This document shows positions 13,232-29,488 of a stretch of 40,244 nucleotides of DNA, piece after piece; positions within the stretch are counted from its first letter, which is position 1, and every line of letters starts with the position of its first letter. The stretch is from Pleomorphomonas carboxyditropha (GTDB lineage: Bacteria; Pseudomonadota; Alphaproteobacteria; Rhizobiales; Pleomorphomonadaceae), in contig NZ_NQVN01000033.1 in assembly GCF_002770725.1 (NCBI RefSeq), forward strand, positions 1-40,244, in the 5' to 3' direction. The notes under the pieces are model-generated. The model was not told where the DNA came from and did not search any database. It saw only the letters and a list, made by a program, of their open reading frames with translations. The translations under genes were made by a program, and so were the position numbers.

Positions 13232-14949
13232 GCCGCGCCTCCGCCGTCCAGCGTCGCCGACATGGCGGCGAACGCGCCGCCGCGCGCCTTGAGCTCGGCC
13301 GGCGTCCCTTCCTCCGCCAGTCGACCGCCGGCGAGGACCAGCACCCGGTCGGCGGCCTCCACCGTGCGCAGACGATGGGCGATGGTAAGGCGCGTGCGGC
13401 CAGCCGAAAGCGCGGCGATCGCCTCTCCCACCGCCGCCTCGGTGGCGGCGTCGAGATGGGCGGTGGGTTCGTCCATCAGCACGAGCGGCGCTGGGGAGAA
13501 GAGCGCGCGGGCCAGCATCAGCCGCTGCGCCTCGCCGCCGGAAAGGCCGGCGCCGCCCTCGCCGATGCGGCTTTCCACGCCGTCGGGCAGCCGGGCGACG
13601 AACTCATCGGCGCGGGCGGCCCTGAGCGCCGCCGAGATATCGCCGGGCCGGCCCATTGCGATGTTCTCGGCGATGGTGGCGTCGAACAGGAAGGCGCGCT
13701 GCGGCAGGAAGGCGATGTGGCGCCTGATATCGTCGAGGTCGAGGGAGGCGAGCGGCCGGCCGTCGATCAGGATGGTGCCGGCCGACGGCTCCAGGAAGCC
13801 GCCGATCAGCGACAGGATGGTCGACTTGCCGGCGCCGCTCTCGCCGACGATCGCTACCTGCTCGCCGGCGCCGATGTCGAAGCTGACGCCATCGAGGGCA
13901 AGGCGGCCGTCGCCATAGCCGGCCGACACGTTGTCGAAGCGGACCGATACCGCCGCACCGGCGCCGAACGGCTCGCCGCCGGTGCGGCGAGGCACCGGCC
14001 GGGCCAGGAAGTCGACAAGCCGCTCGGCGGCGGCCACCGCTTCCATGCGGGCGTGCCGCTCGGTGCCGAGCATCCTGAGCGGCGCGTAGAACAGCGGGGC
14101 GAGCAGCAGCACGGTGAGGCCGTCGACAAAGGCGATCTCACCCCACAGCAGCCGGAACCCCACCAAGACCGCCGTCACGGCGATGGAAACGGTGGCGAAG
14201 AATTCCAGCACCAGCGCCGACAGGAAGGCGAGGCGCAGCACCTTCATGGTCTCGCGCCGGTATTCGTCGGCGGTTCGGGCCACCAGCTTCACCTCGCGCT
14301 TCGCCGCGCCGAGCAGCACCAGGTCGGCGAGACCGGCCACGGCGTCCAGGAGATGTCCGCCGAGCCGCGCCATCGAGGCCCATTGCCGCTGGTTGGCCCG
14401 TTCGGCCGAGCGGCCGGCCAGCACCATGAACATCGGCAGAAGCGGCAGGGTCACGGCGAAGATCGCCGCCGAGCGCCAGTCGACCGGCAGCACGACAAGC
14501 AGGATGGCGACGGGCAGCACGGCGACGGCGGCCGTCGCCGGCAGCCACTGCCGCCAATAGGGCTCGATGCCGGCGACGGCGTCGGTCAGCGTCGTGGCGA
14601 GATCGCCGGTGGCGGTACCGGCCAGCCGCACCGGCCCGAGGGCGGCGACCTGATCGAGAAGACGAGCGAACAATCCCTGCCGCGCCCGCGCCGCCGCCTC
14701 GAAGCCGACCTGAGCGCCGGCATAGCCGATCACCGCCCTGAGGACGGCGATGCCGACAAGCTGCATCAGCCAGGAGAGGACGGCGGCAAGGTCAGCGCCC
14801 TGAAAGACCGCGGCGTCGATGATGCGGGCGGTGACGAAGGCAGCGGCCACTCCGAGCAGGCCCTCGGCGACGGCGGCGGCGAGAAGCAGCGCCGTCTCCC
14901 TTCGCACACCGGCCGAAAGATCTTCGAGAAGGGTCTCGGGTTTGCTCAT
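13228..14949 (-). CDS. cydD: ABC transporter CydD, cytochrome bd assembly
   Basis: CydD is the partner subunit of the CydDC thiol exporter. The 573-residue product (start MSKPETLL) has six membrane helices in the first 300 residues, then an ATPase domain. That domain has Walker A VGESGAGKST, signature LSGGEAQRL, Walker B LVLMDEPTAHLD and H-loop TIAHRLRT. The frame stays open 21 codons upstream of the chosen ATG, but the MSKPET start gives the usual CydD N-terminus. No strong Shine-Dalgarno is seen. It is separated from cydX by 172 bases containing a stable hairpin, so cydDC may be transcribed partly independently of cydABX. Confidence 0.9.
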   Translation of the reverse strand: MSKPETLLEDLSAGVRRETALLLAAAVAEGLLGVAAAFVTARIIDAAVFQGADLAAVLSWLMQLVGIAVLRAVIGYAGAQVGFEAAARARQGLFARLLDQVAALGPVRLAGTATGDLATTLTDAVAGIEPYWRQWLPATAAVAVLPVAILLVVLPVDWRSAAIFAVTLPLLPMFMVLAGRSAERANQRQWASMARLGGHLLDAVAGLADLVLLGAAKREVKLVARTADEYRRETMKVLRLAFLSALVLEFFATVSIAVTAVLVGFRLLWGEIAFVDGLTVLLLAPLFYAPLRMLGTERHARMEAVAAAERLVDFLARPVPRRTGGEPFGAGAAVSVRFDNVSAGYGDGRLALDGVSFDIGAGEQVAIVGESGAGKSTILSLIGGFLEPSAGTILIDGRPLASLDLDDIRRHIAFLPQRAFLFDATIAENIAMGRPGDISAALRAARADEFVARLPDGVESRIGEGGAGLSGGEAQRLMLARALFSPAPLVLMDEPTAHLDAATEAAVGEAIAALSAGRTRLTIAHRLRTVEAADRVLVLAGGRLAEEGTPAELKARGGAFAAMSATLDGGGAA

Positions 14950-15041
14950 GCGCGAATGGGCCGGTGATGAGATGTGGCAAGCCGGAGTGCCACGCGCCGA
15001 CCGGAACCGCAAGGGCGGTCGCCTTCACTTGGGCGCGATTG

Positions 15042-15085
15042 AAAACAGGACGGCCGGCACGGTGGGCGGGACGACCGTGCCGGCC
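15042..15085 (-). terminator. hairpin between cydX and cydD (terminator or attenuator)
   Basis: A perfect 12-bp stem GGCCGGCACGGT (15052-15063) pairs with ACCGTGCCGGCC (15074-15085) across a 10-base loop. On the minus strand it is followed after six bases by TTTT (15042-15045). The stem is strong and the T-tract short, so it may attenuate rather than end transcription from cydABX into cydDC. Confidence 0.5.
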
Positions 15086-15121
15086 TTGAAAGACGCGGCG
15101 GAGGCCGCCGCGCCGGATCGG

Positions 15122-15232
15122 TTATTCGGACGCGTCGATGTCGAGACCGTCCTGGAATTCGAACCACATGACGTTGATGACGCCGATCGCCGCCGCGGCC
15201 GTGACGCCAAGGATCCAGGCAAAATACCACAT
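15122..15232 (-). CDS. cydX: cytochrome bd small subunit CydX
   Basis: This 36-residue single-helix subunit stabilises the haem sites of cytochrome bd. The N-terminus MWYFAWILGV followed by a hydrophobic stretch and NVMWFEF is the CydX (YbgT) pattern, and the acidic tail DIDASE is typical. The start is secure: GGAGGAG (15241-15247) lies 8 bases upstream. The gene begins 16 bases after the cydB stop in the same direction, matching the usual cydABX order. It is easily missed because of its length. Confidence 0.93.
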   Translation of the reverse strand: MWYFAWILGVTAAAAIGVINVMWFEFQDGLDIDASE

Positions 15233-15248
15233 TGTCCGTTCTCCTCCG

Positions 15249-16400
15249 TCAGTAGGCCGAATGCGAGCGGGCGCCGATGTCGTCCGCCGTGACGCGGCCC
15301 CACATCCGCCAGTAGCACCAGAGGGTGTAGGCGAGCACGACCGGCAGGAAGATGATCACGGCCCAGAACATGACGTTGAGCGTCAGGTGGCTGGACGTGG
15401 CGTCCCACATGGTCAGGCTGGCGTTGGGGTCGAGGCTCGACGGCATCACGAAGGGGAACATCGAGAGGCCGGCGGTGCCGATGATGCCGGCGATGCCGAG
15501 CGCCGACGTCACGAAGGCGAGGCCGGGCCGGTCGGCCTTGGCGAGAAGCGCGGTGAGGAGCGGTCCGACGAGGCCGACCACCGGCGCCAGGATGGTGATC
15601 GGCATCGTCGCGTAGATGTCGAACCAGGCGCCCGGCGCCACCACCACCTGCTTGCCGAGCGGGTTGGGCAGGGCATCGAGCGGCGGCTGCGACACGATGC
15701 GATAGCCGTCGATGCCGAGCCAAACCCAGACGCCGGCGATTGCGAACAGCGCGGCGACCACCGGTGCCAGCCGGATCACCAGCGCCTGCGACCGCGCCGC
15801 CACCTCACCGGAGGCACGAAGCTGCAGCCAGACGGCCCCGTGCGCGACCAGCATGCCCAGCGAAATGAGGCCGGCCAGCAGCGCGAAGGGGTTGAGCAGC
15901 GGCAGCAGGGCGAAGATGAACGAGCCCTGGTAGTGGGCACGCAGGATCTCGTCGAGGCGGAAGGGCACGCCCTGCAGGAGATTGCCGAAGGCGACGCCGA
16001 AGATCAGCGCCGGAATGGCCCCGCCGGCGAACAGTGCCCAGTCCCAGGTCGAGCGCCACTTCGGATTGTCGAGCTTCGAACGGTAGTCGAAGCCGACCGG
16101 CCGGAAGAACAGCGCGAACAGCACCAGGAGCATCGCCATGTAGAAGCCGGAAAAGGCGGCGGCGTAGACCATCGGCCAGGCGGCGAACAGGGCGCCACCG
16201 GCGGTGATCAGCCACACCTGATTGCCGTCCCAGTGCGGGCCGATGGTGTTGATGGCGATGCGCCGCTCGGCGTCGGTCTTGGCGACGAAGGGCAGAAGCG
16301 ACCCGACGCCCATGTCCATGCCGTCGGTGATGGCGAAGCCGATCAGCAGCGCGCCGACGAGGATCCACCAGATGAACTTCAGCGTTTCATAGTCGAACAT
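15249..16400 (-). CDS. cydB: cytochrome bd ubiquinol oxidase subunit II
   Basis: CydB pairs with CydA in the inner membrane quinol oxidase, which reduces oxygen to water with high affinity and without proton pumping. The 383-residue protein starts MFDYETLKFIWW and shows the conserved ITDGMDMGVG segment near residue 24, GPHWDGNQVW near 54-63 and several hydrophobic helices. The length agrees with E. coli CydB (379). It lies 10 bases downstream of cydA in the same operon and precedes cydX. Confidence 0.95.
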   Translation of the reverse strand: MFDYETLKFIWWILVGALLIGFAITDGMDMGVGSLLPFVAKTDAERRIAINTIGPHWDGNQVWLITAGGALFAAWPMVYAAAFSGFYMAMLLVLFALFFRPVGFDYRSKLDNPKWRSTWDWALFAGGAIPALIFGVAFGNLLQGVPFRLDEILRAHYQGSFIFALLPLLNPFALLAGLISLGMLVAHGAVWLQLRASGEVAARSQALVIRLAPVVAALFAIAGVWVWLGIDGYRIVSQPPLDALPNPLGKQVVVAPGAWFDIYATMPITILAPVVGLVGPLLTALLAKADRPGLAFVTSALGIAGIIGTAGLSMFPFVMPSSLDPNASLTMWDATSSHLTLNVMFWAVIIFLPVVLAYTLWCYWRMWGRVTADDIGARSHSAY

Positions 16401-16410
16401 GGCGGTCTCC

Positions 16411-17994
16411 TCATTCTGCCGCCGCGACGCGGGCCGATGCCGGCGTCTGGGTCTCGAAATGATAGCGGCCGGTGCCGAGCGAGCTCGGGCCGAGGCGGGC
16501 GAACTTGAACATCAGGTAGGCCTCGACCACCAGCAGGCCGGTGTAGAGCACCAGGAAGCCGGTCAGCGAGAAGATCAGATCGGTGGTGGTGAGGCTCGAC
16601 GTACCGAGGAAGGTCGGCAGCACCTCGCCGATCGCCCAGGGCTGACGGCCGAATTCGGCGACGAACCAGCCGAGCTCGCAGGCGAGCCAGGGCAGCGGAA
16701 TCGCCCACAGCGCCGCCTTGAGCAACCAGCGGTTCTTCTCGTGGCTGCGCCGGGCGCTGACGTAGAAGGCCGAGGCGAAGATGATCAGCATGACGAAGCC
16801 GAAGCCGACCATGAAGCGGAAGGCCCAGAACAGCGGCCAGACCTTGGGGATCGTGCCGTCGGCGGCGGCCTGGATCTGCTCCTCGCTGGCGGTGGCCGGA
16901 TCCTCGACGAACTGCTTCAGCAGAAGGCCGAAGCCGATATCCTTGGCGTGGGCGTCAAAGACGGCGCGCGTCTCCGGCGTGGTGTCGCCCCCGCGGATCT
17001 TCATCATCGCCGCGTAGCCCTCCTGCCCCGACCGGATGCGGGCGAGATGCTCCTCGCGGAGCTGGTTGAGGCCGCGTACCGGCTCATCCAGCGAACGCGT
17101 GGCGATCAGGCCGAGCGCGTAGGGAATTTCGATCGCCCCGCGGGTAACCTTCTCCTCCTGCGAGGGGAAGCCGATCAGGTTGAAGGCGGCCGGGGCCGGA
17201 GCGGTGTCCCACTCGCCCTCGATGGCGGCGAGCTTGACCTTCTGCACGTCGCCGAGCTCGTAGCCGCTCTCGTCGCCGAGCACGATCACCGACAGGCAGG
17301 ACGCGAGGCCGAACCCGGCGGCGACGGCAAACGACCGCTTGGCGAACGCGATGTCGCGCCCCTTGAGCAGGTACCAGGAGGAAATGCCGAGCACGAACAT
17401 CGAGGCGGTGGTGTAGCCGGCGGCGACCGTGTGGACGAACTTCACTTGGGCGACCGGATTGAACAGCACCTCCGAAAAGGAGTGCATTTCCATGCGCATC
17501 GTCTCGGGCGAGAACAGCGAGCCGACCGGGTTCTGCATCCAGCCGTTGGCGACCAAGATCCACAGGGCCGACAGGTTGGAGCCGAGCGCCGTCAGGAAGG
17601 TGACGGCAAGGTGCTGGCGCCGGCTGAGCTTGTCCCAGCCGAGGAAGAACAGGCCGACGAAGGTCGATTCGAGGAAGAAGGCCATCAGGCCTTCGATGGC
17701 CAGCGGTGCGCCGAAGATGTCGCCGACGTAATGCGAATAATAGGACCAGTTGGTTCCGAACTGGAACTCCATGGTCAGGCCGGTGGTGACGCCGAGGGCG
17801 AAGTTGATGCCGAACAGCTTGCCCCAGAACTTCGTCATGTCCCGGTAGATTTCCTTGCCGGTCATCACGTAGACGGTTTCCATGATGACCAGTAGCCAGG
17901 CCAGCCCCAGCGTCAGCGGCACGAAGATGAAGTGGTACATTGCCGTGGCGGCGAATTGCCAGCGCGACAATTCCACGAATGTCTGATCGAACAT
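16411..17994 (-). CDS. cydA: cytochrome bd ubiquinol oxidase subunit I
   Basis: CydA carries the haem b558, b595 and d sites and the quinol site. The 527-residue protein has [14 protein letters not shown] with the b595 histidine, [10 protein letters not shown] with the b558 histidine and the GRQPW signature. The segment from [12 protein letters not shown] to [12 protein letters not shown] shows a full-length Q-loop of the E. coli (long Q-loop) class, not the short cyanide-insensitive type. The start at 17994 (MFDQTF) is chosen because GAGAGG lies 12 bases before it. An ATG at 18006 would touch that same sequence with no spacing. It heads cydABX and is divergent from an Rrf2 regulator. Confidence 0.95.
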
Positions 17995-18315
17995 GATGGC
18001 CGACATCCTCTCAGCGAAGGCAGTCCGCGAACACGTGTGGCGTTCGGACCGCCGCGTTCTTCCTCAAGGGCTCGCCGCGTCGCCGGCAGGCCGGCGGCAG
18101 GCGGAACTCGTCGATCCGGAGGACGGACAAGCGGCGTCGGCCGTGCGCTTCCGGCGACGACCACCGACAGCGACGGTATGGACGACCATCATCTTTGCAA
18201 CCCCCGTGGCCGGCTGCACCGGCGGACCACCGGCAGCTCCCCGCCCGGCAATCGACATGGACAGGACTATCGATATAAAGCTATACAGTCAATATACCTT
18301 TGGAGGAAGGTCGCC
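17995..18315. promoter_or_regulatory. divergent control region between cydA and Rrf2 gene
   Basis: These 321 bases separate two divergent genes and hold no supported gene. Most is GC-rich, but 18268-18300 is a marked AT-rich island close to the Rrf2 start. It contains an imperfect dyad TATACAGTCAATATA (18282-18296; outer TATA/TATA and inner G-C symmetry), a possible operator. Promoter hexamers for either side are not clear: TTGACT occurs on the minus strand inside the island, without a good -10. Confidence 0.45.
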
Positions 18316-19388: not shown

Positions 19389-20084
19389 TCAGACGGCTAT
19401 TTTGCCGCGCACCGCCTCTTCGTCCATGCCGTCGCGATCACCCGACATCACCACCTCGCCGCGCTCCATGACCACGAAATCGTCGGCGAGATCCTTGGCG
19501 AAATCGAAATATTGCTCGACCAGCACGATGGCCATGTTCCCCTGCCGGCGCAGGAAGGCGATGGCGTGGCCGATATCCTTGATGATCGACGGCTGGATGC
19601 CCTCGGTCGGCTCGTCGAGCACGAGAAGGCGCGGCCGCGTCACCAGCGCCCGGCCGATGGCGAGCTGCTGCTGCTGGCCGCCGGAGAGATCGCCGCCGCG
19701 CCGGCGCAGCATGTCCTTCAGCACCGGAAACAGATCATAGACCATGTCGGGCACGTAGCGGTCGGCCCGCCTCAGCGTGGCGAACCCCGTCAGAAGGTTC
19801 TCTTCCACCGTCAGCAAGGGAAAGATCTCGCGGCCCTGCGGCACGATGGCGACGCCGCGCCGCACCCGCTCGTAAGGCGCAAGGCCGACGAGATCATCGC
19901 CGTCGAGGCGGATCGCCCCGCCGGAGATCGGCTGCAGGCCGGCGATCGCCCGCATCAGCGAGGTCTTGCCGACGCCGTTGCGGCCGAGCACCGCCGTGAC
20001 GCGCCCGGCGGTGGCGGACAGCGACACCTTCCGCAGCGCCTGGGCGGCGCCATAGTGGAGGTCGACGGCTTCGACGTTCAGCAT
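19389..20084 (-). CDS. urtE: urea ABC transporter ATP-binding protein UrtE
   Basis: This is the second ATPase of the high-affinity urea importer. The 231-residue LivF-type protein has Walker A GRNGVGKTS, signature LSGGQQQQLAIG, Walker B LLVLDEPTEGIQPS and switch histidine region VLVEQYFDFA. The EGIQPSII sequence after Walker B is characteristic of UrtE. The start ATG at 20084 has AAGGAA upstream and lies 14 bases after urtD. It is the last gene of urtABCDE. Confidence 0.93.
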   Translation of the reverse strand: MLNVEAVDLHYGAAQALRKVSLSATAGRVTAVLGRNGVGKTSLMRAIAGLQPISGGAIRLDGDDLVGLAPYERVRRGVAIVPQGREIFPLLTVEENLLTGFATLRRADRYVPDMVYDLFPVLKDMLRRRGGDLSGGQQQQLAIGRALVTRPRLLVLDEPTEGIQPSIIKDIGHAIAFLRRQGNMAIVLVEQYFDFAKDLADDFVVMERGEVVMSGDRDGMDEEAVRGKIAV

Positions 20085-20098
20085 GGGTTTCCGTTCCT

Positions 20099-20851
20099 TC
20101 ACCGCCCGAGATAGACCTCGATCACCTTCGGGTTGGCCGACACGGCGTCGAGCGAACCCTCGGCCAGCACCGAGCCCTCGTGCAGCACCGTCACCTTGAC
20201 GTCGAGGGCGCGGACGAAGGTCATGTCGTGCTCGACCACCACCACCGACTGCGTCCTGGCGATATCCTTGAGCAGGATGGCCGTTTCCGCCGTTTCGGCG
20301 TCGGTCATGCCGGCGGCCGGCTCGTCGACCAGGAGAAGCCGCGGCTCCTGGGCGAGCAGCATGCCGATCTCCAGCCACTGCTTCTGGCCGTGCGACAGCC
20401 GGGCGGCGAGCAGATCGCGCTTGTCGGAGAGGCGGATGGTGGCGAGCAGCGCGTCGATGCGATCCTGTTCGGCGGCCGAGCGGCGGTGGAACAGCGTGGC
20501 GAAGGCGCCGCGCCGGCCCTTCAGCGCCAGCGCGATATTGTCCTCGACGCTGTGGCTCTCGAACACCGTCGGCTTCTGGAACTTGCGGCCGATGCCGAGA
20601 TTGGCGATCGCCGCCTCGTCGAGGCGGGTGAGATCGACCGAGCCGTCGAACAGCACGTCGCCCGTGTCGGGTCGCGTCTTGCCGGTGATGATGTCCATCA
20701 TCGTCGTCTTGCCGGCGCCGTTGGGGCCGATGATCGCCCGCATTTCGCCCGGCTCCAGCACCAGCGACAGCCGGTTGATCGCCCGGAAGCCGTCGAAGGA
20801 TACCGAGACGTCGTCGAGATAAAGGAGCGAGCCTTCCGCCTTGTCGGTCAT
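20099..20851 (-). CDS. urtD: urea ABC transporter ATP-binding protein UrtD
   Basis: This is the first ATPase of the urea importer, 250 residues, LivG-type. Walker A is GPNGAGKTTM, the signature LSHGQKQWLE replaces the usual LSGGQ (as is normal for UrtD), Walker B is LLLVDEPAAGMTDAE, and VVVVEHDMTFVR carries the switch histidine. The start overlaps the urtC stop (ATGA). It energises import of urea bound by UrtA through UrtBC. Confidence 0.93.
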   Translation of the reverse strand: MTDKAEGSLLYLDDVSVSFDGFRAINRLSLVLEPGEMRAIIGPNGAGKTTMMDIITGKTRPDTGDVLFDGSVDLTRLDEAAIANLGIGRKFQKPTVFESHSVEDNIALALKGRRGAFATLFHRRSAAEQDRIDALLATIRLSDKRDLLAARLSHGQKQWLEIGMLLAQEPRLLLVDEPAAGMTDAETAETAILLKDIARTQSVVVVEHDMTFVRALDVKVTVLHEGSVLAEGSLDAVSANPKVIEVYLGR

Positions 20852-21993
20852 GCCGCCTCTCCCGCCCGTCGCCCGGAACCATCCATTTCCTTCGCCGGCT
20901 TCGTGCGCCGGCTGACCACCCGATCCCACAGGCCGACGATGCCGCGCGGCAGGAACAGCGTCACCACCACGAACAGGGCGCCGAGCGCATAGAGCCAGAC
21001 TTCCGGCAGCGCACCGGTGAACCAGGTCTTGCCGAAGTTGACGGCCACGGCGCCGATCAGCGGACCGACCAGCGTGCCCCGGCCGCCGACCGCCACCCAG
21101 ATCACCGCTTCGATGGACGCGGCGGGATCGAACTCGGACGGATTGATGATGCCGACCTGCGGCACGTAGAGCGCGCCGGCGACGCCGGCCATCACGGCCG
21201 ACAGCGTCCAGACGAACAGCTTGTAGTGCTCGACGCGGTAACCGATGAACCGGGTGCGGCTTTCGGCATCGCGGATAGCCACCAGCACCTTGCCGAGCTT
21301 GGAGCGGACCACCGCCGAGGCGACGACGAAGCCGAGCGCCAGCATCAGCGCCGACGCGGCGAACAGCGCGGCGCGGGTGCCCGGCGCCTGGATCGGAAAG
21401 CCGACAATGTCCTTGAAGTCGGTGAGGCCGTTGTTGCCGCCGAAGCCCATGTCGTTGCGGAAGAAGGCGAGCAGCAGCGCGTAGGTGAGGGCCTGGGTGA
21501 TGATCGAGAGATAGACGCCGGTGACCCGGCTGCGGAACGACAGCCAGCCGAACAGCAAGGCAAGCAGGCCCGGCACCAGGATGACCATCAGCAACGCGTA
21601 CCAGGCCATGTCGAAGCCGTGCCAGAACCAGGGCAGCTCCTTCCAGTTGAGGAACACCATGAAGTCGGGCAGCACCGGATCGGCATAGACGCCGCGCGCA
21701 CCGATCTGCCGCATCAGATACATGCCCATGGCGTAGCCGCCGAGCGCGAAGAAGGCACCGTGGCCGAGCGACAGGATGCCGCAATAGCCCCAGACGAGAT
21801 CGACCGACAGCGCCAGCAGCGCGTAGGTGAGATACTTGCCGAAGAGGGTGAGCTGGTAGGTGGAGACGTGGAACGCGCTTCCCTCCGGCACCAGCAGGTT
21901 GCCCGCCGGCACCAGCAGGGCGAGCGCCACCAGCAGGCCGACCACGATGCGCCCCCGCCGGTCGAGGCTGTCGATCAGGAAGGAGGTGATCAT
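20848..21993 (-). CDS. urtC: urea ABC transporter permease UrtC
   Basis: This is an inner-membrane permease of the LivM type, 381 residues with about nine to ten hydrophobic helices. Family landmarks include GYCGILSLGHGAFFALGGYA near residues 69-88 and VGGRGTLVGPLIGA near the C-terminal part. The start at 21993 has AGGAGGTGATC directly upstream and overlaps the urtB stop by four bases. Works with UrtB to form the transmembrane channel for urea. Confidence 0.93.
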   Translation of the reverse strand: MITSFLIDSLDRRGRIVVGLLVALALLVPAGNLLVPEGSAFHVSTYQLTLFGKYLTYALLALSVDLVWGYCGILSLGHGAFFALGGYAMGMYLMRQIGARGVYADPVLPDFMVFLNWKELPWFWHGFDMAWYALLMVILVPGLLALLFGWLSFRSRVTGVYLSIITQALTYALLLAFFRNDMGFGGNNGLTDFKDIVGFPIQAPGTRAALFAASALMLALGFVVASAVVRSKLGKVLVAIRDAESRTRFIGYRVEHYKLFVWTLSAVMAGVAGALYVPQVGIINPSEFDPAASIEAVIWVAVGGRGTLVGPLIGAVAVNFGKTWFTGALPEVWLYALGALFVVVTLFLPRGIVGLWDRVVSRRTKPAKEMDGSGRRAGEAA

Positions 21994-23606
21994 GCTTCCA
22001 CCGCCCTGCCCTTCAGGGCGAACAGGCCGCGCGGCCGCTTCTGGATGAACAGGATGATGGCCAGCAGCAGGATGATCTTGCCGAGCACGGCGCCGGCATA
22101 GGGCTCCAGCATCTTGTTGGCGACGCCGAGCGTCAGCGCGCCGACCAGCGTGCCCCAGAGATTGCCGACGCCGCCGAACACCACCACCATGAAGCTGTCG
22201 ATGATGTAGCCGCGCCCGAGGTTGGGCGACACGTTGTCGATCTGGCTGAGCGCCACGCCGGCGAGGCCGGCGATGCCCGAGCCGAGGCCGAAGGTCAGCG
22301 CGTCGACCAGCGGCGTGCGGATGCCGACGGCGGCGGCCATCTGGCGGTTCTGAGTCACGGCGCGCATTTCGAGGCCGAGCCGGGTGCGCTTCAGCACGGC
22401 GATCAGCGCCAGGAATACGGCGAGCGCGAACAGGATGATCCAGAGGCGCGTCCAGGTAACCTGGATGTCGCCGACGGAGAAGGAGCCCGACATCCACGAG
22501 GGATTGCCGACCTCGCGATTGTTGGCGCCATAGAGCGAGCGGACCGCCTGCTGCAGGATCAGCGACACGCCCCAGGTGGCGAGCAGCGTTTCGAGCGGCC
22601 GGCCGTAGAGCCAGCGGATGACCGACCGTTCGATCAGGATGCCGGCGAGCGCCGCGGTCAGGAAGGCAACCGGCAGGGCGATCAGCAACGAATAGTCGAA
22701 CAGGCCCGGCCAGGAGGTCCGGATCACCTCCTGCACGGTGAAGGTGGCATAGGCGCCCAGCATCACCATCTCGCCGTGCGCCATGTTGATGACGCCCATC
22801 ACGCCGAAGGTGATGGCGAGGCCGATGGCGGCGAGCAGCAGCACCGAGCCGAGCGACAGGCCGTACCAGAGGTTCTGGCCCATATCCCACAGCATCAGCC
22901 GGCTTTCGATCGCCGCCGCGGCCTTGCGGGCGGCGTCGCCCACGGCGCCGTCGGCGGAAGTATAGCCGGACAGGAAGCCGAGGGCGTCGCGGCTGCCGAG
23001 ATCGGCGATGGCGGCGATGGCCGCCACCTTGTCGGATTCCGGCGCATCGGACGCGAGCAGCGCCGTGGCCCGCGCCGCCACCATGGCCGCGCGAATATCG
23101 GGGACGGTCTCGACGGCGATCGCCTGCTCGAGGGCGGGAAGCGCGGCGGCGTCCGCCGACTTCATCACCGCCTCCGCCGCCGCCCGGCGTACCGCCGGGT
23201 CGGGGCTCATCAGCGTCAACGCGCCCACCGCCGAAGCGATGGCGCGGCGGATGCGGTTGTTGACCTTGATCTTCTCGACCGTCGCCTTGGGCGCCGGCCC
23301 GGCGTCGGCGCCGGTTACCGGATCGGTGAGGCGATAGTCCTTGCCGGCCTTGTCGGCGAAAAACACGGCGCCGTCGGCCTTGCGCACCATCAGCTCGCCC
23401 TCGCCGAGGCGATCGAGGATGGCCGGCACACGATCGTCGCCGGTCGCGGCCAGATCGGTGATGGCCGTCTCGACCTCGTCGAAGCCGCCGGCGCCAAGGG
23501 CGGCGACGCGGGCCGAAAGGTCGGCGTCGGCGATGCGGCCGGCGAGGGCCGGCTGCAAGCCGGCGGCGAGCGCCGCCACGATGGCGAGAAGACGTAAAAA
23601 ACGCAT
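21990..23606 (-). CDS. urtB: urea ABC transporter permease UrtB
   Basis: The 538-residue UrtB has a signal-like N-terminus (MRFLRLLAIVAALAAG), then an alanine-rich helical region of about 210 residues likely outside the membrane. The LivH-type permease starts near residue 245 (LGSVLLLAAIGLAITFGVMG, then INMAHGEMVMLGAYA). The long N-terminal extension is usual for proteobacterial UrtB and absent in ordinary LivH. No strong Shine-Dalgarno is visible. It is separated from urtA by 94 bases containing a stable hairpin, and overlaps urtC by four bases. Confidence 0.92.
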   Translation of the reverse strand: MRFLRLLAIVAALAAGLQPALAGRIADADLSARVAALGAGGFDEVETAITDLAATGDDRVPAILDRLGEGELMVRKADGAVFFADKAGKDYRLTDPVTGADAGPAPKATVEKIKVNNRIRRAIASAVGALTLMSPDPAVRRAAAEAVMKSADAAALPALEQAIAVETVPDIRAAMVAARATALLASDAPESDKVAAIAAIADLGSRDALGFLSGYTSADGAVGDAARKAAAAIESRLMLWDMGQNLWYGLSLGSVLLLAAIGLAITFGVMGVINMAHGEMVMLGAYATFTVQEVIRTSWPGLFDYSLLIALPVAFLTAALAGILIERSVIRWLYGRPLETLLATWGVSLILQQAVRSLYGANNREVGNPSWMSGSFSVGDIQVTWTRLWIILFALAVFLALIAVLKRTRLGLEMRAVTQNRQMAAAVGIRTPLVDALTFGLGSGIAGLAGVALSQIDNVSPNLGRGYIIDSFMVVVFGGVGNLWGTLVGALTLGVANKMLEPYAGAVLGKIILLLAIILFIQKRPRGLFALKGRAVEA

Positions 23607-23700: not shown

Positions 23701-24993
23701 TCAGGAATTGCCGCCGCACTTGCCCGTGGCGACGTTGAAGTTGCCGCAGGAAAGCGGCTTGCGCCAATCGGAGATCAGATCCTTGGAGCCTTCGAGGTAG
23801 TCCGACCATTCGTCGCCGACCACCGGCGCCGTCTCCGAGACGATATCGAACTGGCCATCGTCCTGGATCTCGCCGATCAGCACCGGCTTGGTGATGTGAT
23901 GGTTCGGCATGATGGTGGCGTAGCCGCCGGAAAGGTTCGGCACGGTGGTGCCGACCAGCGTGTCGATCACCGGGTCGACGTCGGTGGTGCCGGCCGCTTC
24001 CACCGCCTTCACCCAGGCGTTGAAGCCGATGTAGGTGGCTTCCATGGGGTCGTTGGTGGTGCGCTTGTCGTTCTTGATGAACTGGTGCCAGCCGTCGATG
24101 AAGGCGGCATTGGCCTCGCTGTCGACCGACTGGAAGTAGTTCCAGGCGGCGAGATGGCCGACCAGCGGCTTGGTGTCGATGCCGGCCAGTTCCTCCTCGC
24201 CGACCGAGAAGGCGACCACCGGAATATCCTCGGCCTTGATGCCCTGGTTGCCGAGCTCCTTGTAGAAGGGCACGTTGGCATCGCCATTGATGGTCGACAC
24301 GACGGCGGTCTTCTTGCCGGCCGAGCCGAACTTCTTGATGTCGGCGACGATCGATTGCCAGTCGGAATGGCCGAACGGCGTATAGTTGATCATGATGTCG
24401 TCGTCGGCGACGCCCTTGGCCTTCAGATAGGCCTCGAGGATCTTGTTGGTGGTGCGCGGGTAGACGTAGTCGGTGCCGGCCAGCACCCAGCGCTGCACGC
24501 CTTCTTCCTTCATCAGATAGTCGACGGCGGGAATGGCCTGCTGGTTGGGGGCGGCGCCGGTGTAGAAGACGTTGCGCTCCGATTCCTCGCCCTCGTACTG
24601 GACGGGATAGAACAGGATCGAGTTGAGCTCCTTGAACACCGGCAGCACCGACTTGCGGCTGACCGACGTCCAGCAGCCGAACACCACCGACACCTTGTCC
24701 TGCGAGATCAGCTCGCGCGCCTTTTCGGCGAACAGCGGCCAGTTGGAAGCCGGATCGACCACCACCGCCTCGAGCTTCTTGCCGAGCACGCCGCCCTTCT
24801 TGTTCTGCTCGTCGATGAGATAGAGCACCGTGTCCTTCAGCGTGGTCTCGGAAATGGCCATGGTGCCCGACAGCGAATGCAGCACGCCTACCTTGATGGT
24901 GTCATCGGCGGCGTAGCCGGCCATCGTGGAGGCGAGAAGCGCGCCGAGAACGGCGGCAAGCGTCGTGCGACGCCGATCGAAGATCTGCGACAT
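23701..24993 (-). CDS. urtA: urea ABC transporter substrate-binding protein UrtA
   Basis: This is the periplasmic urea-binding protein, 430 residues, with a signal peptide of about 28 residues (cleavage after AGYA). The mature part opens IKVGVLHSLSGTMAISE and contains VFGCWTSVSRKSVLPV and FYPVQYEGEE, all characteristic of UrtA rather than of amino-acid-binding LivJ/K. It is the first gene of the urt operon and should be the most highly expressed. The region upstream (24994-25265) is shared with a divergent sensor kinase gene, suggesting that this two-component pair regulates the operon. Confidence 0.95.
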   Translation of the reverse strand: MSQIFDRRRTTLAAVLGALLASTMAGYAADDTIKVGVLHSLSGTMAISETTLKDTVLYLIDEQNKKGGVLGKKLEAVVVDPASNWPLFAEKARELISQDKVSVVFGCWTSVSRKSVLPVFKELNSILFYPVQYEGEESERNVFYTGAAPNQQAIPAVDYLMKEEGVQRWVLAGTDYVYPRTTNKILEAYLKAKGVADDDIMINYTPFGHSDWQSIVADIKKFGSAGKKTAVVSTINGDANVPFYKELGNQGIKAEDIPVVAFSVGEEELAGIDTKPLVGHLAAWNYFQSVDSEANAAFIDGWHQFIKNDKRTTNDPMEATYIGFNAWVKAVEAAGTTDVDPVIDTLVGTTVPNLSGGYATIMPNHHITKPVLIGEIQDDGQFDIVSETAPVVGDEWSDYLEGSKDLISDWRKPLSCGNFNVATGKCGGNS

Positions 24994-25265
24994 CTGTGGT
25001 TCCCCGTTTTTGTCTGGAGGCCGAGGCCCCTTGCCCCGTCTGGTCCTCGCTCCGACTTTCGGCCAAGCCGGCCGGACACCCTATACGTCGATTGACGTAA
25101 GTTCCCGGCAGAACCGGCACGAACCCTGCACGCGGAATGAAATGGACGCGGCCGGCCGGCCGTCGGCCCGGCAGACGGGCGGTGTGATCACGGCTGCGCC
25201 GATCCCCTTGCCGGAAAAACGAGCAGCCTGCCGCATATGGGGGCGCGAACAGGAGAACGGGGCGC
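24994..25265. promoter_or_regulatory. divergent region urtA / sensor kinase with perfect dyad
   Basis: These 272 non-coding bases separate urtA from the kinase gene. A perfect inverted repeat TACGTC-GATT-GACGTA lies at 25084-25099, about 90 bases before the urtA start, a candidate regulator site. TATAGG on the minus strand partly overlaps it (25080-25085), so it could sit at a urtA promoter. No good sigma54 box was found. Confidence 0.45.
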
Positions 25266-28200
25266 ATGGCGGCGCGGCAGCGCATCATTCCGATCCGGCG
25301 CCAGTACAATCGCTGGGTCGCCGACGAGACGCTGGAAGACTACGCGCTGCGCTTCACCGCCAAGTCGGCGCGCCGCTGGTCGCAGGAGCGCGTCGCCCAG
25401 ACCGCCATCGGCGCCATCTCCTTTCTGGCGCTGGAGGCGATCGGCGGCGCCATCACGCTATCCTACGGCACGGCGAACGCCGTCGCCGCCATCGTCGCGG
25501 CCAGCCTCGCCATGCTGGCCGTCGGCTGGCCGATCGCCCGCACCGCTGCCCGCCACGGCGTCGACATCGATCTGCTGACCCGCGGCGCCGGCTTCGGCTA
25601 CATCGGCTCGACGGTCACCTCGCTCATCTACGCCAGCTTCACCTTCATCCTGTTCGCCATCGAGGCGTCGATCATGTCGACGGCCCTGGAGATGGCGCTC
25701 GGCCTGCCGCTCTGGGCCGGCTACATCGTCTCGACGCTCCTGGTGATTCCGCTGGTCACCCACGGCATCGCCTGGATCAGCCGTTTCCAGATCCTGACGC
25801 AGCCGGTCTGGATCGTCCTCAACATCCTGCCCTTCGTCTTCATCGCCTTCTCCGACGGCGCCAGCTTTGCCGACTGGGCGGCCTTTCCGGGGCGGGACGG
25901 AACCATCGGCGGCGGCTTCCAGCTCGTCGCCTTCGGCGCGGCGAGCGCGGTGATCCTGGCGCTCACCGCCCAGATCGGCGAGCAGGTCGACTTCCTCCGC
26001 TTCCTGCCGGCGCGCCTGCCGGGCTCCGGCCGCCGGCGGCGTCTGGCGGTGTTCCTGGCCGGCGCCGGCTGGGTGGTGCTCGGCGTACCCAAGATGATCG
26101 CCGGCTCCTTCCTCGCCGTGCTGGCGCTGTCGAGCGGCGTACCGGTCGAGCATGCCGCCGAGCCGGCGCGCATGTATGCCGTCGCCTTCGGCTACGTGCT
26201 GCCGGAGGGCGCGTGGCTCTCCCTGCTGACGGCCGTCTTCGTGGTGGTGTCGCAGCTCAAGATCAACGTGATGAACGCCTATGCCGGCTCGCTCGCCTGG
26301 TCGAACTTCTTCTCCCGCCTCACCCACAGCCACCCCGGCCGCGTCGTCTGGCTGGTGTTCAACGTCTCCATCGCCCTGTTGCTGATGGAGATCGGCATCT
26401 ACCAGGCGCTGGAGCAAACGCTCGCGGTATTCGCCATCGTCGCCGTCGCCTGGCTCTCGACCATTTCGGCCGATCTCCTGATCAACAAGCCGCTCGGTCT
26501 CAGCCCGCCCGGCATCGAGTTCAAGCGGGCGCATCTTTGGGACGTCAATCCCGTCGGCGTCGGGGCGATGGCGGCGGCGGCGCTGGCCGGCCTGCTCGCC
26601 CATGTCGGTCTCGCCGGTCCGGTCGCCGAGGCCTTCGCCCCCTTCGTGGCGCTCGCCGCCGCTTTCCTGGCCGCACCGCTGATCGCCTGGTTCACCGGCG
26701 GCCGCTTCTATCTCGCCCGCAAGCCCCGCCGAACCTACGCCCTCGCGCCGGCGCTGACCTGTTCGGTCTGCCAGCACGACTTCGAGGCGGAGGACATGTC
26801 CTACTGCCCGGCCTATCAGGCACCGATCTGCTCGCTGTGCTGCTCGCTCGACGCCCGCTGCCATGATCGCTGCAAGCCGAAGGCGCGGCTCGGCGCCCAG
26901 GCCCGGACCATCTTCGAGCGCCTGTTTCCGCCGCCGCTCGTTGCCGCCGCCAACACGCGGCTCGGCCGCTACCTCGTCGAACTCGGCCTGTGGGTCGCCC
27001 TGTCGGGCCTCATCATGTGGTTCGTCTACCGCCAGGCGGCCGTCGACCATCCGGATGAGGCGGCGCTGATCGGCCGGACGCTCGGCGTGGTGTTCTTCGT
27101 CTTTTCGGTGGTGATCGGCATCGTCGTCTGGTTCTTCGTGCTGGCCCGCGATTCGCGCGCCGTCGCCGAGGAGGAGAGCGCTCGCCAGACGCAGGCGCTG
27201 TTCCAGGAGATCGCCGCCCACAAGCGGACCGACGCCGAGCTGCAGAAAGCCAAGGAGAAGGCCGAGGCGGCGAGCAACGCCAAGAGCCGCTACGTCGTCG
27301 GCCTCAGCCACGAGCTGCGCACCCCGCTCAACGCCGTGCTCGGCTACGCCCAGATCCTCGAGCGCGATCCGGCCATCGCCGGCGGGCGGCGCAATGCCGT
27401 CGGGGTGATTCGGCGCTCGGCCGAGCACCTGTCCGGCCTGATCGACGGCCTTTTGGACATCTCCCGCATCGAGGCCGGCCGCTTCCGCATCCGGCTGACC
27501 GACGTCCGCGTCCACGACCTCCTCGACCAGATCGAGGGCATGTTCGCCCTGCAGGCGGAGGCCAAGGGGCTTGTTTTTCGCGCCACTCGCGCCGCCGACC
27601 TGCCCGCCGTGGTGCGCACCGACGAGAAGCGGCTGCGCCAAGTGCTGGTCAATCTGCTCTCCAACGCCATCAAGTTCACGCAGGACGGCAGCGTGACGCT
27701 CGCCGTCGACTACAGAAACCAGGTGGCGCGCTTCACGGTCGCCGATACCGGCGTCGGCATCGCCGAGGACGACCAGGGGCGAGTGTTCGAGCCGTTCGAG
27801 CGCGGCCGGCATGCCGCCTCCACCAACGTGCCCGGTCTCGGGCTCGGCCTCACCATCACCCGCCTGCTGGTCGAGACCATGGGCGGCGACATCGCCATGA
27901 CCTCGGCGCCCGGCGCCGGCACCCGTTTCAATGTGCGCCTGATGCTGGGCGCCGTGGTCGGCGCCGCCGCCGTCGACGGCGACCGGCCGGTGACCGGCTA
28001 CACGGGGCCGCGCCGCACCATCCTGGTGGTCGACGACAATGCCGAGCACCGCGACATGATGGTGGAGATGCTCGCGCCCCTCGGCTTCACGGTGCTGACG
28101 GCGGCCGGCGGCGACGACTGCCTCGTTCGCATGCAGGCGGCGCACCCGGATATCCTGTTCGTCGACATCCGCATGCCCGGCATGAGCGGCTGGCAGCTGG

Positions 28201-28625
28201 TCAGCCGGCTCAGGACCGACGGCGTCCGGACGCCGATCGTCATGCTGTCGGCCAACATCGGCGACGGCGCCATGCCGGCCAGCGACCTCGGCCACGACGA
28301 CGTGCTGGCCAAGCCCTTTTCGCTCGCCGATCTGCTCGACCGGCTCGGCCGCCACCTCGGCATCACCTTCCTCGAAGCGGAAGCCGGCGAGGCGGCGACC
28401 ATCACCCCGCTGCCAGCCGAGCGACCGCCGGCGCTGTCCGCCGCCGACGTCGCGGAACTGAAATCGCTCGCCGCCATCGGCTACGTGCGCGGGCTCGAGA
28501 GCAAGCTCGCCGCGCTCGCCGGAACAGAAGCCGATCCGGCCGCCATCGCCGCGCTCGGCGCCCACCTCAGCGCCTTCGACCTCGCCCGCTTCACCGCCAC
28601 CCTCGAGGATATGACCTCGCCATGA
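25266..28625 (+). CDS. permease-fused hybrid sensor histidine kinase
   Basis: The 1119-residue protein starts with a cytosine/purine-permease-like (NCS1-type) membrane region of about 12 helices (roughly 40-490). Next come a segment with eight cysteines (499-536), two more helices (about 569-588 and 605-627) and a coiled coil (about 630-672). The kinase core follows: SHELRTPLN with phospho-acceptor H682, N-box near 800, ADTGVGIA and GLGLGL in the ATPase domain. A receiver domain comes next (D923, D924, D967, K1016), then a short C-terminal helical tail. AGGAG lies 10 bases before the ATG. It is divergent from urtABCDE and overlaps the next regulator gene by four bases. Most likely it senses or transports a nitrogen compound (urea, purine or similar) and signals through phosphorelay; the ligand is inference. 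Confidence 0.85.
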   Translation: MAARQRIIPIRRQYNRWVADETLEDYALRFTAKSARRWSQERVAQTAIGAISFLALEAIGGAITLSYGTANAVAAIVAASLAMLAVGWPIARTAARHGVDIDLLTRGAGFGYIGSTVTSLIYASFTFILFAIEASIMSTALEMALGLPLWAGYIVSTLLVIPLVTHGIAWISRFQILTQPVWIVLNILPFVFIAFSDGASFADWAAFPGRDGTIGGGFQLVAFGAASAVILALTAQIGEQVDFLRFLPARLPGSGRRRRLAVFLAGAGWVVLGVPKMIAGSFLAVLALSSGVPVEHAAEPARMYAVAFGYVLPEGAWLSLLTAVFVVVSQLKINVMNAYAGSLAWSNFFSRLTHSHPGRVVWLVFNVSIALLLMEIGIYQALEQTLAVFAIVAVAWLSTISADLLINKPLGLSPPGIEFKRAHLWDVNPVGVGAMAAAALAGLLAHVGLAGPVAEAFAPFVALAAAFLAAPLIAWFTGGRFYLARKPRRTYALAPALTCSVCQHDFEAEDMSYCPAYQAPICSLCCSLDARCHDRCKPKARLGAQARTIFERLFPPPLVAAANTRLGRYLVELGLWVALSGLIMWFVYRQAAVDHPDEAALIGRTLGVVFFVFSVVIGIVVWFFVLARDSRAVAEEESARQTQALFQEIAAHKRTDAELQKAKEKAEAASNAKSRYVVGLSHELRTPLNAVLGYAQILERDPAIAGGRRNAVGVIRRSAEHLSGLIDGLLDISRIEAGRFRIRLTDVRVHDLLDQIEGMFALQAEAKGLVFRATRAADLPAVVRTDEKRLRQVLVNLLSNAIKFTQDGSVTLAVDYRNQVARFTVADTGVGIAEDDQGRVFEPFERGRHAASTNVPGLGLGLTITRLLVETMGGDIAMTSAPGAGTRFNVRLMLGAVVGAAAVDGDRPVTGYTGPRRTILVVDDNAEHRDMMVEMLAPLGFTVLTAAGGDDCLVRMQAAHPDILFVDIRMPGMSGWQLVSRLRTDGVRTPIVMLSANIGDGAMPASDLGHDDVLAKPFSLADLLDRLGRHLGITFLEAEAGEAATITPLPAERPPALSAADVAELKSLAAIGYVRGLESKLAALAGTEADPAAIAALGAHLSAFDLARFTATLEDMTSP

Positions 28626-29488
28626 CTCCCACCCGCGACACCGTGCTCGTCGTCGACGACAGTCCCGAGACGCTCGGCTTCCTCACCGAGGCCATGGAGG
28701 CCGAGGGCGTCACCGTATTGGTGGCCACCTCCGGCCGGCAGGCGCTCGCCATCGCCGGCCGCGTCACGCCGGACGTGGTGCTGATGGACGCGGTGATGCC
28801 GGAAATGGATGGCTTCGACGCCTGCCGCTCTCTGAAGGCCATGCCGGCGCTCGCCCACGTGCCGGTGATCTTCATGACCGGCCTCAGCGAGACCGAACAC
28901 GTCGTGCGCGGTCTCGCCTCCGGCGGCGTCGACTATCTCACCAAGCCGATCGACCTCGACGAGCTCAGGGCGCGCATCCGCGTCCACCTCGCCAATGCCC
29001 GCGCCAGCCTCTCGGCGCAGGCGGCGCTCGACGCGGCGGGGCGGCACCTCATAGCGCTGGATCCCGACGGCCGCATCGTCTGGGCCACGCCCCAGGCGAG
29101 CCGGCTGATCGACGAACTGGGCATCGCCAAGGCGATCGAAGCGGCGGCGGCGAGCAGCGACGGCCAGCTCGAACTGGCGATACCCGACGCCCTGCCGCTC
29201 CTCCTCGCCCCCGTGGGCGCCGCCGGACCGGGCGAACGCCTCTACCGGCTCGCCCGCAGCGAGGCGGACGAAGCCAACCTGTTGAGGTCCCGCTTCAGCC
29301 TCACCGCGCGCGAGGCCGAGGTGCTGCTCTGGATCGGCCGCGGCAAGACCAACCGGGACATCGGCGACATCCTCGGTCTGTCGCCCCGCACCGTCAACAA
29401 GCACCTCGAGCAGATCTACGCCAAGCTCGGTGTCGAGAATCGTGCCTCGGCGGCGCTGAAGGCGGCCGACGCGCTCCGGGACGGGTGA
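28622..29488 (+). CDS. LuxR-type response regulator, partner of permease-kinase
   Basis: The 288-residue protein has an N-terminal receiver domain (VLVVDDSPE, phospho-acceptor D56 in VLMDAVMPEMDGF, lysine in YLTKPIDL). A linker of about 90 residues with a PAS-like beginning (HLIALDPDGRIVWATPQA) follows. The C-terminal LuxR helix-turn-helix reads LTAREAEVLLWIGRGKTNRD and then SPRTVNKHLEQIYAKLGV. Its start overlaps the kinase stop (ATGA), so the two are made together. It is the likely DNA-binding output of the permease-kinase and may control the divergent urt operon. Confidence 0.92.
   Translation: MTPTRDTVLVVDDSPETLGFLTEAMEAEGVTVLVATSGRQALAIAGRVTPDVVLMDAVMPEMDGFDACRSLKAMPALAHVPVIFMTGLSETEHVVRGLASGGVDYLTKPIDLDELRARIRVHLANARASLSAQAALDAAGRHLIALDPDGRIVWATPQASRLIDELGIAKAIEAAAASSDGQLELAIPDALPLLLAPVGAAGPGERLYRLARSEADEANLLRSRFSLTAREAEVLLWIGRGKTNRDIGDILGLSPRTVNKHLEQIYAKLGVENRASAALKAADALRDG

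Follow-up and report, generated by a model that had tools for sequence, protein, structure and literature searches.

What is a permease-like membrane domain doing when it is fused to a histidine kinase and encoded beside a urea transporter? The question is raised by a 40,244-nt contig of Pleomorphomonas carboxyditropha (NZ_NQVN01000033.1, assembly GCF_002770725.1; hereafter the window), in which the genes of a hybrid sensor histidine kinase and a LuxR-type response regulator are divergent from urtABCDE. The arrangement recalls the SLC5/STAC kinases CbrA, CrbS (MxtR) and RpuS, which likewise join a transporter-fold domain to a histidine kinase. In CrbS and RpuS, as in the present system, the kinase ends in a receiver and works with a LuxR-type partner, and RpuS controls the gene of a symporter encoded nearby (PMC9100948, PMC7918813, PMC13022988; statements on cited papers refer to the portions of their text available). 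CbrA has been called a rare transceptor (PMC13022988). Sequence comparisons indicated that the system in the window is real and conserved, with a strong prediction of its target and a good one of its ligand. We consider it likely to be a dedicated two-component 'transceptor' system for urea uptake, the NCS1 counterpart of CbrA/CrbS. The initial annotation of the locus had suggested a transporter turned sensor of the CbrA kind and tied to urea uptake, and the analysis supported that idea.

The same annotation had described one protein that joins a permease-like domain, a cysteine-rich segment, a hybrid kinase and a receiver, and Pfam searches and a structural model confirmed this architecture at the positions collected in Table 1. 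The expected phosphorylation sites are in place: the kinase has the H-box histidine H682, the ATPase motifs and the receiver aspartate D967, and its partner has the receiver aspartate D56 and a helix-turn-helix (HTH) domain. A histidine phosphotransfer domain at the kinase C-terminus was considered and rejected, there being no conserved histidine in that region. The stop codon of the kinase gene and the start codon of the regulator gene overlap by 4 bp (ATGA), which suggests that the two are co-translated. Residues 1-530 of the kinase had no Pfam family above the cut-off and no match among the best 25 of 156 NCBIfam matches; neither set contained STAC, although the presence of a STAC model in either library was not confirmed. 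CbrA, CrbS and RpuS have STAC and PAS in the linker, whereas the linker of the present kinase contains an eight-cysteine module and two helices (residues 565-594 and 596-666 in the model, with hydropathy peaks at 569-587 and 608-626). The closest named record is the counterpart in Pleomorphomonas sp. JP5, whose N-domain is 93% identical.

The membrane domain was examined with an AlphaFold model of residues 1-667, built from 42 sequences (mean predicted local distance difference test score, pLDDT, 78.4; predicted template modelling score, pTM, 0.80). Foldseek searches of the PDB returned CodB (E-value 3.6e-8, template modelling score by target 0.76) and Mhp1 (E-value 5e-8, score 0.68) as the nearest structures, and chains of these two NCS1 proteins filled ranks 1-5. 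Lower ranks were occupied by other LeuT-fold families, with the urea transporter DUR3 at rank 18; SSS structures (SiaT, DUR3) stood at rank 10 and below and scored worse than the NCS1 structures, which argues against an SLC5 domain. A profile of the kinase family aligned over residues 24-490 with CodB grouped with three permeases (hhalign Prob 99.3, E-value 2e-20), but the match to CodB alone was weak (Prob 17). No PDB chain was found by sequence, either with the protein or with the profile (the latter at E<=1), and PF02133 matched neither the kinase in Pfam nor, at E<=10, anything in the P. carboxyditropha genome. Because the structural and profile matches were strong yet the match to CodB alone was weak, the domain as modelled is NCS1-fold but divergent, and its earlier designation as 'NCS1-like' was right by fold.

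This divergence extends to the functional sites. In CodB, sodium is held by Thr278 and Thr279 of transmembrane helix 8 (TM8) and cytosine is stacked on Trp108 and Phe204, the tryptophan in TM3 being predominant across NCS1 (PMC9379551). In an ungapped alignment of TM8, K332 and I333 of the kinase stand opposite the two threonines, so that the hydroxyl pair of the Na2 site would be absent; this alignment was made by eye, anchored on CodB N280 and Y285, and with a MAFFT gap nearby and a pLDDT of about 73 its register is uncertain by about one residue. The TM3 tryptophan is replaced by I, M, L or F in the kinase family. These differences, the lack of a PF02133 match and the fused kinase set the protein apart from CodB and Mhp1, whose fold it shares. 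E57, T126, E133, Q236, E239, Q240, D242, K276, Q330, K332, N334 and N337 are invariant in 143 of 143 relatives, as are the eight cysteines at residues 499-536 (5 truncated kinases of 152, then 4 of the remaining 147 of unknown or mixed group, had been dropped).

A domain of this kind might still transport urea or an amide, the flux itself serving as the signal, a mode that is conceivable for CbrA and histidine. Histidine transport by CbrA proceeds without sodium, and the protein has K196 in its Na2 site (PMC13022988); MetT, which belongs to NCS1, does not depend on sodium and is inhibited by carbonyl cyanide m-chlorophenylhydrazone (PMC13390362). The invariant K332, if it does lie at the position of the CodB threonines, would make proton coupling conceivable. 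We regard continued transport as possible but clearly the less probable course, since the adjoining genes already encode an ATP-binding cassette (ABC) system for that solute and a second route would be unneeded. The cysteine module, possibly metal-binding, could in principle be the sensor, of metal or redox state, with the permease domain as its anchor. The invariance of the eight cysteines is what this idea has in its favor, but E57, T126, E133, Q236, E239, Q240, K332, N334 and N337 in the membrane helices are equally invariant, a similar cysteine tail is found on a plain permease without a kinase, and the gene neighbors point to amides; we think it quite improbable.

That plain permease (locus L065) is the closest one found, with 26% identity and a CxxC...CxxC tail. 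L065:6922-8562 and L066:8660-10162 are both plain NCS1-type permeases with a cysteine tail, and they adjoin hydantoinase/oxoprolinase-type genes, an AmiR-type ANTAR regulator and a UrtA-like binding protein (profiles were run on L065 only, and gene calls in L066 were made by clustering). Because the closest plain permease combines the tail with amide-type neighbors, a permease with a cysteine tail may have preceded the kinase fusion.

The identity of the signal was approached through the genes that accompany the kinase. In the window, the divergent neighbor had been read as a urea transporter operon, and this held: the NCBIfam profiles of UrtA, UrtB and UrtC matched above cut-off and in operon order, while urtD and urtE were assigned by order and similarity. 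Linkage to urt in related genomes, on which the initial annotation had made its proposal depend, was found to be conserved. A match to residues 1-654 at E<=1e-10 was present in 85 of 297 genomes of the order, one of them (G248) with only a weak permease-like match, and 88 kinase places were taken after exclusion of 5 weak, presumably plain-permease places. At least 45 of the 88 have UrtA no more than about 6.5 kb away on their contig, always divergent, and 240-931 bp separated it from the kinase in 40 of these. Thirty-seven loci of the order were then read, namely 35 of the 43 places without a UrtA call and 2 of the 45 with one, the other 8 places being outside the reading. All had fmd-type, FmdA/AmiS or urt genes except 2 cut by contig ends. 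The kinase faces an ABC set and FmdA in 24 of them (five ABC genes in 22, four in 2); in 8 it lies by FmdA, an AmiS/UreI-type channel gene and an OmpR-type regulator, with a separate receiver-kinase in 7 of the 8; and urt genes are present in 3. Neighbor profiles were run on the representatives L032 and L056. In L032, FmdA is a formamidase, and the UrtA and UrtB profiles match the binding protein and the first permease, respectively. The AmiS-linked loci (L056-L063; profiles for L056 only) form a sister clade whose kinases are about 890 residues long and have no receiver, and here the output half of the system has been exchanged.

The same neighborhood was found beyond the order. In a sample of the phylum, 52 of 398 genomes had a relative of the kinase, at 57 places, of which 34 were read, including all 32 outside the order; 33 of these showed fmd, urt and/or ureC in the stretch and one was cut by a contig end. 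Aliphatic-amidase-like genes were seen at 10 of the 34, and one amidase was confirmed by profile at another locus. In each of four genomes (G435, G493, G513 and G636), one kinase copy lies by fmd and a second by ureC/urt. Among a set of 80 named loci, urt or fmd genes are present in 76, contig ends interrupt 3, and 1 (L121) has neither; among the uncut loci read this was the only exception, all others being near urtABCDE, urease, a short-chain-amide operon (fmdDEF-like ABC genes and formamidase), or formamidase with AmiS/UreI. A quick tree was built from 76 kinases and two permeases on long branches, rows of unknown or mixed group and near-copies having been removed; its root is unsure. In it the 'urea-linked' label switches no fewer than three times, a minimum that holds when the count is limited to well-supported branches. 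L147, which has a stop codon, had been dropped from a kinase alignment. By gene linkage the family is mostly fmd-linked, with urt/urease-linked kinases forming at least three groups within it, and three gains of urea linkage from fmd-linked ancestors is the simplest reading. The tie to urt proposed at the outset is therefore real but not specific to urt. Residue 398 (TM10) was considered as a ligand switch, being other than Gly or Ala in 21 of 26 urea-linked and 0 of 45 fmd-linked representatives; with only three independent pairs (p 0.5), it was retained as a hint only.

Since linkage to urea and amide genes is conserved and the urea-linked groups lie among fmd-linked ones, urea or short amides are favored as the kinase signal. 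The initial annotation had offered urea or purine-derived nitrogen; the neighboring fmd, formamidase, aliphatic amidase, AmiS/UreI and urease genes strengthened the first and weakened the second. A signal such as allantoin, hydantoin or a nucleobase would suit the NCS1 fold, whose closest representatives here are cytosine and hydantoin transporters, and the hydantoinase/oxoprolinase-type genes by the L065 permease. However, the recurrent neighbors are urea and amide genes (the neighbors were probed for these, not for purine genes), the tryptophan equivalent to CodB W108 is lost, and the L065 locus also follows an amide theme with its AmiR-type regulator and UrtA-like binding protein, and there seems little chance that the signal is purine-derived. 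Purine genes suspected in Rhizobium loci, where a 118-aa gene and an ABC set lie beyond the regulator, resemble a Liv-type set, judging by gene order and start sequences. The region in L104, a record titled Arenimonas, resembles these Rhizobium loci (urt, kinase and Liv-like ABC set), perhaps as a misassigned contig. The kinase might also read the liganded binding protein (UrtA or FmdD) or the state of the ABC transporter instead of the solute, as the adjoining of kinase and binding-protein genes in most loci read would permit. This is unlikely in our view, because the eight AmiS-linked loci have no called ABC binding protein beside the kinase, L188, L203, L215 and L218 show ureC but no urtA within the stretch, and the invariant polar residues are inside the membrane helices of the kinase.

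The target of the system was predicted from a dyad, TACGTC-N4-GACGTA, which precedes the urtA start by 98 bp. In seven species of the genus, the region that separates urtA from the kinase contains an invariant block around TACGTCGATTGACGTA. In the P. carboxyditropha genome (5.88 Mb), the dyad has one exact match and a reversed-pattern control none, and with up to one mismatch each occurs once. Of 13 genomes of the genus, 12 have the exact dyad once each; in the thirteenth, a copy with one mismatch lies 165 bp upstream of the kinase. Among the 297 genomes, the exact dyad was found in 47 of 76 with a receiver-bearing kinase against 13 of 221 others (which include seven AmiS-clade-only genomes and G002), whereas the control showed no association (8 of 76 against 28 of 221). 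The exact dyads lie within 6 kb of a kinase in 44 of 61 cases.

Placement was then analyzed in 130 of the 152 kinase loci, the 22 without a binding-protein gene in the stretch being left out. Sites were divided into class A (TACGT..ACGTA), class B (TACGC..GCGTA) and class C (three loci). In 93 of the 130, a class A or B site lies in the 300 bp upstream of the binding-protein gene (mean of 50 shuffles, 0.02), and 94 of 96 class A-C sites are centered 60-150 bp upstream of the gene start. In tight urt-linked loci, 27 of 30 have a site with at most one mismatch near the binding-protein gene, compared with 32 of 70 tight fmd-linked ones. When urtA and the kinase are separated by at least 1.2 kb (30 loci), such a site is found 70-126 bp upstream of urtA in 20 loci, within 500 bp of the kinase in none, and nowhere in 10. 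As judged from its persistence at urtA in these separated loci, the dyad goes with the urtA promoter and not with the kinase gene. In addition, the regulator residue following RTV, N259 here (numbered by hand), co-varies with the half-site: asparagine goes with class A in 61 of 63 classified loci, aspartate with class B in 15 of 15 (mostly Bradyrhizobium and kin, hence few independent events), and threonine with six A and four B. Site placement and this co-variation in the recognition helix make the regulator the likely binder of the dyad, which in P. carboxyditropha perhaps constitutes a one-site regulon, although weaker sites may exist. The dyad could instead be the site of another regulator, its association with the kinase being a by-product of shared locus ancestry; the genomes are related and not independent, and 17 of the 61 exact dyads have no kinase within 6 kb. 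Nonetheless, the reversed control shows no association, dyads accompany the kinase also in loci outside the order and class, and the recognition-helix residue changes with the half-site, so that we hold another regulator to be rather unlikely. Two further dyads were noted: L121 retains one with a single mismatch 92 bp upstream of its kinase, and TGGGT-N6-ACCCA, a different dyad of the same 16-bp geometry, is upstream of the fmd operon in L053, L054 and L055.

We propose that a former NCS1-type permease was turned into a sensor that would bind urea, or formamide and other short amides in the sister systems. The resulting change in shape would be relayed through the cysteine module, the two extra helices and the coiled coil to the kinase, which would phosphorylate the LuxR-type regulator encoded by the overlapping next gene, the receiver of the kinase itself probably tuning this phosphotransfer. 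The phosphorylated regulator would bind the dyad and activate urtABCDE, and perhaps also its own divergent operon; activation, as opposed to repression, is proposed because the 98 bp between dyad and start codon would fit an activator.

Several observations weigh against this proposal. The ligand assignment rests on gene neighborhood, and the SLC5 domain of CbrA was reported not to be essential for signal perception (PMC9100948), which means that in kinases of this type sensing may lie outside the membrane domain. L121 has the kinase and regulator with full flanks and no urt or fmd gene within 10 kb, and a regulator gene directly after the kinase, seen in 112 of 140 full-length loci by a strict search, is not universal. 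The dyad is distinctive only near exact: at two mismatches it has 30 to 96 matches in each of six kinase genomes, fewer than the control. The exact form is absent from 29 of the 76 kinase genomes, the nearest site in G277 carries two mismatches, and 34 of the 130 loci, 12 of them among the 60 urt-linked ones, have no class A-C site. The proportion with at most one mismatch in tight fmd-linked loci given above is under half, many of the rest being class B, and the eight AmiS-linked loci, with their OmpR-type regulator, have no such site. Finally, classes A to C were set after inspection of the same sequences, and the related genomes are not independent.

The present kinase differs from the SLC5/STAC kinases in being NCS1-type and tied to urea and amides. 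Kinases with S-component or 5TMR domains likewise use a transporter fold as receptor, but the fold is a different one (PMC11109136). Sister kinases adjoin operons of the same kind as Methylophilus fmdCABDEF, which encodes formamidase and amide/urea transport and is inducible by formamide and urea; as described in the available part of a review, that cluster has a putative positive regulator inside it and no kinase is mentioned (PMC10781810). In Ectopseudomonas guguanensis G3, a hybrid kinase and a LuxR regulator are annotated by a second urtABCDE operon (PMC13296017). The gene order is the same as here, with fmdA at the adjoining locus number, a likeness known from annotation; the available text of that account does not discuss a permease domain, a site or a ligand. 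No description of an NCS1-type sensor kinase, or of a urea-sensing kinase of such kind, was seen among the literature matches listed, which consist of titles and abstract beginnings, most subscription journals being outside the coverage.

The known transporter-fused kinases come mainly from SLC5, and for these it is disputed how far the membrane domain takes part in sensing. The present family adds a second transporter fold. With its predicted ligand, a target operon close by and possibly a one-site regulon, it would make the passage from transporter to receptor a testable question, and the system is a candidate for the sensor behind the induction by urea and formamide of uptake operons in rhizobia and in soil bacteria that meet urea fertilizer. 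A broader proposal, for which we see the chances as evenly balanced, is that NCS1-fold transceptor kinases of alpha- and other proteobacterial classes are the missing receptor for urea and short amides. They would have lost the sodium site and the base-stacking pocket, gained invariant polar helix residues, come to signal instead of transport, and switched several times between amide and urea operons, with one operator site per genome in the genus.

Table 1. Positions in the window of the kinase-regulator pair, the dyad and the urea transporter operon.
Feature	Position	Strand	Basis
Hybrid sensor histidine kinase, 1119 aa	25266..28625	+	open reading frame list, Pfam, motif check
NCS1/LeuT-fold membrane domain, aa 24-490	25335..26735	+	AlphaFold, Foldseek, hhalign
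Eight-cysteine module, aa 499-536 (C499, C502, C514, C522, C525, C526, C532, C536)	26760..26873	+	invariant in relatives
Two extra predicted membrane helices into coiled coil, aa 565-627	26958..27146	+	model, hydropathy
HisKA, phospho-acceptor H682, aa 673-738	27282..27479	+	Pfam, motif
HATPase_c, aa 785-893	27618..27944	+	Pfam
Kinase receiver domain (Response_reg), D967, aa 919-1027	28020..28346	+	Pfam, motif
Response regulator, 288 aa, receiver (Response_reg) and LuxR/GerE HTH, D56, N259 in recognition helix	28622..29488	+	
16-bp dyad TACGTCGATTGACGTA, predicted operator of the regulator	25084..25099	.	genus alignment, genome counts
urtA, urea ABC transporter binding protein, predicted target	23701..24993	-	TIGR03407, E-value 6.7e-166, above cut-off
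urtB, with N-terminal extension	21990..23606	-	TIGR03409
urtC	20848..21993	-	TIGR03408, scanned as longer open frame to 22890
urtD, ABC ATPase	20099..20851	-	gene order and similarity in relatives
urtE, ABC ATPase	19389..20084	-	gene order and similarity in relatives

A search for sigma-70 promoters in the region between urtA and the kinase found none. On general Ntr control, to which the initial annotation took the pair to be an addition, the one sequence feature seen is a weak sigma-54-like match at 25115-25130, between the dyad and the kinase and facing the latter, with two mismatches to TGGCACGN4TTGCW; the GG...GC core is conserved across the genus alignment, and such matches occur at chance level across the window. 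The urease alpha gene of P. carboxyditropha is on another contig (C1:105234, locus L222) and has no dyad at up to one mismatch. Farther from the system, the long open reading frames at 11549-18006 encode what we take to be cytochrome bd and a CydDC exporter.

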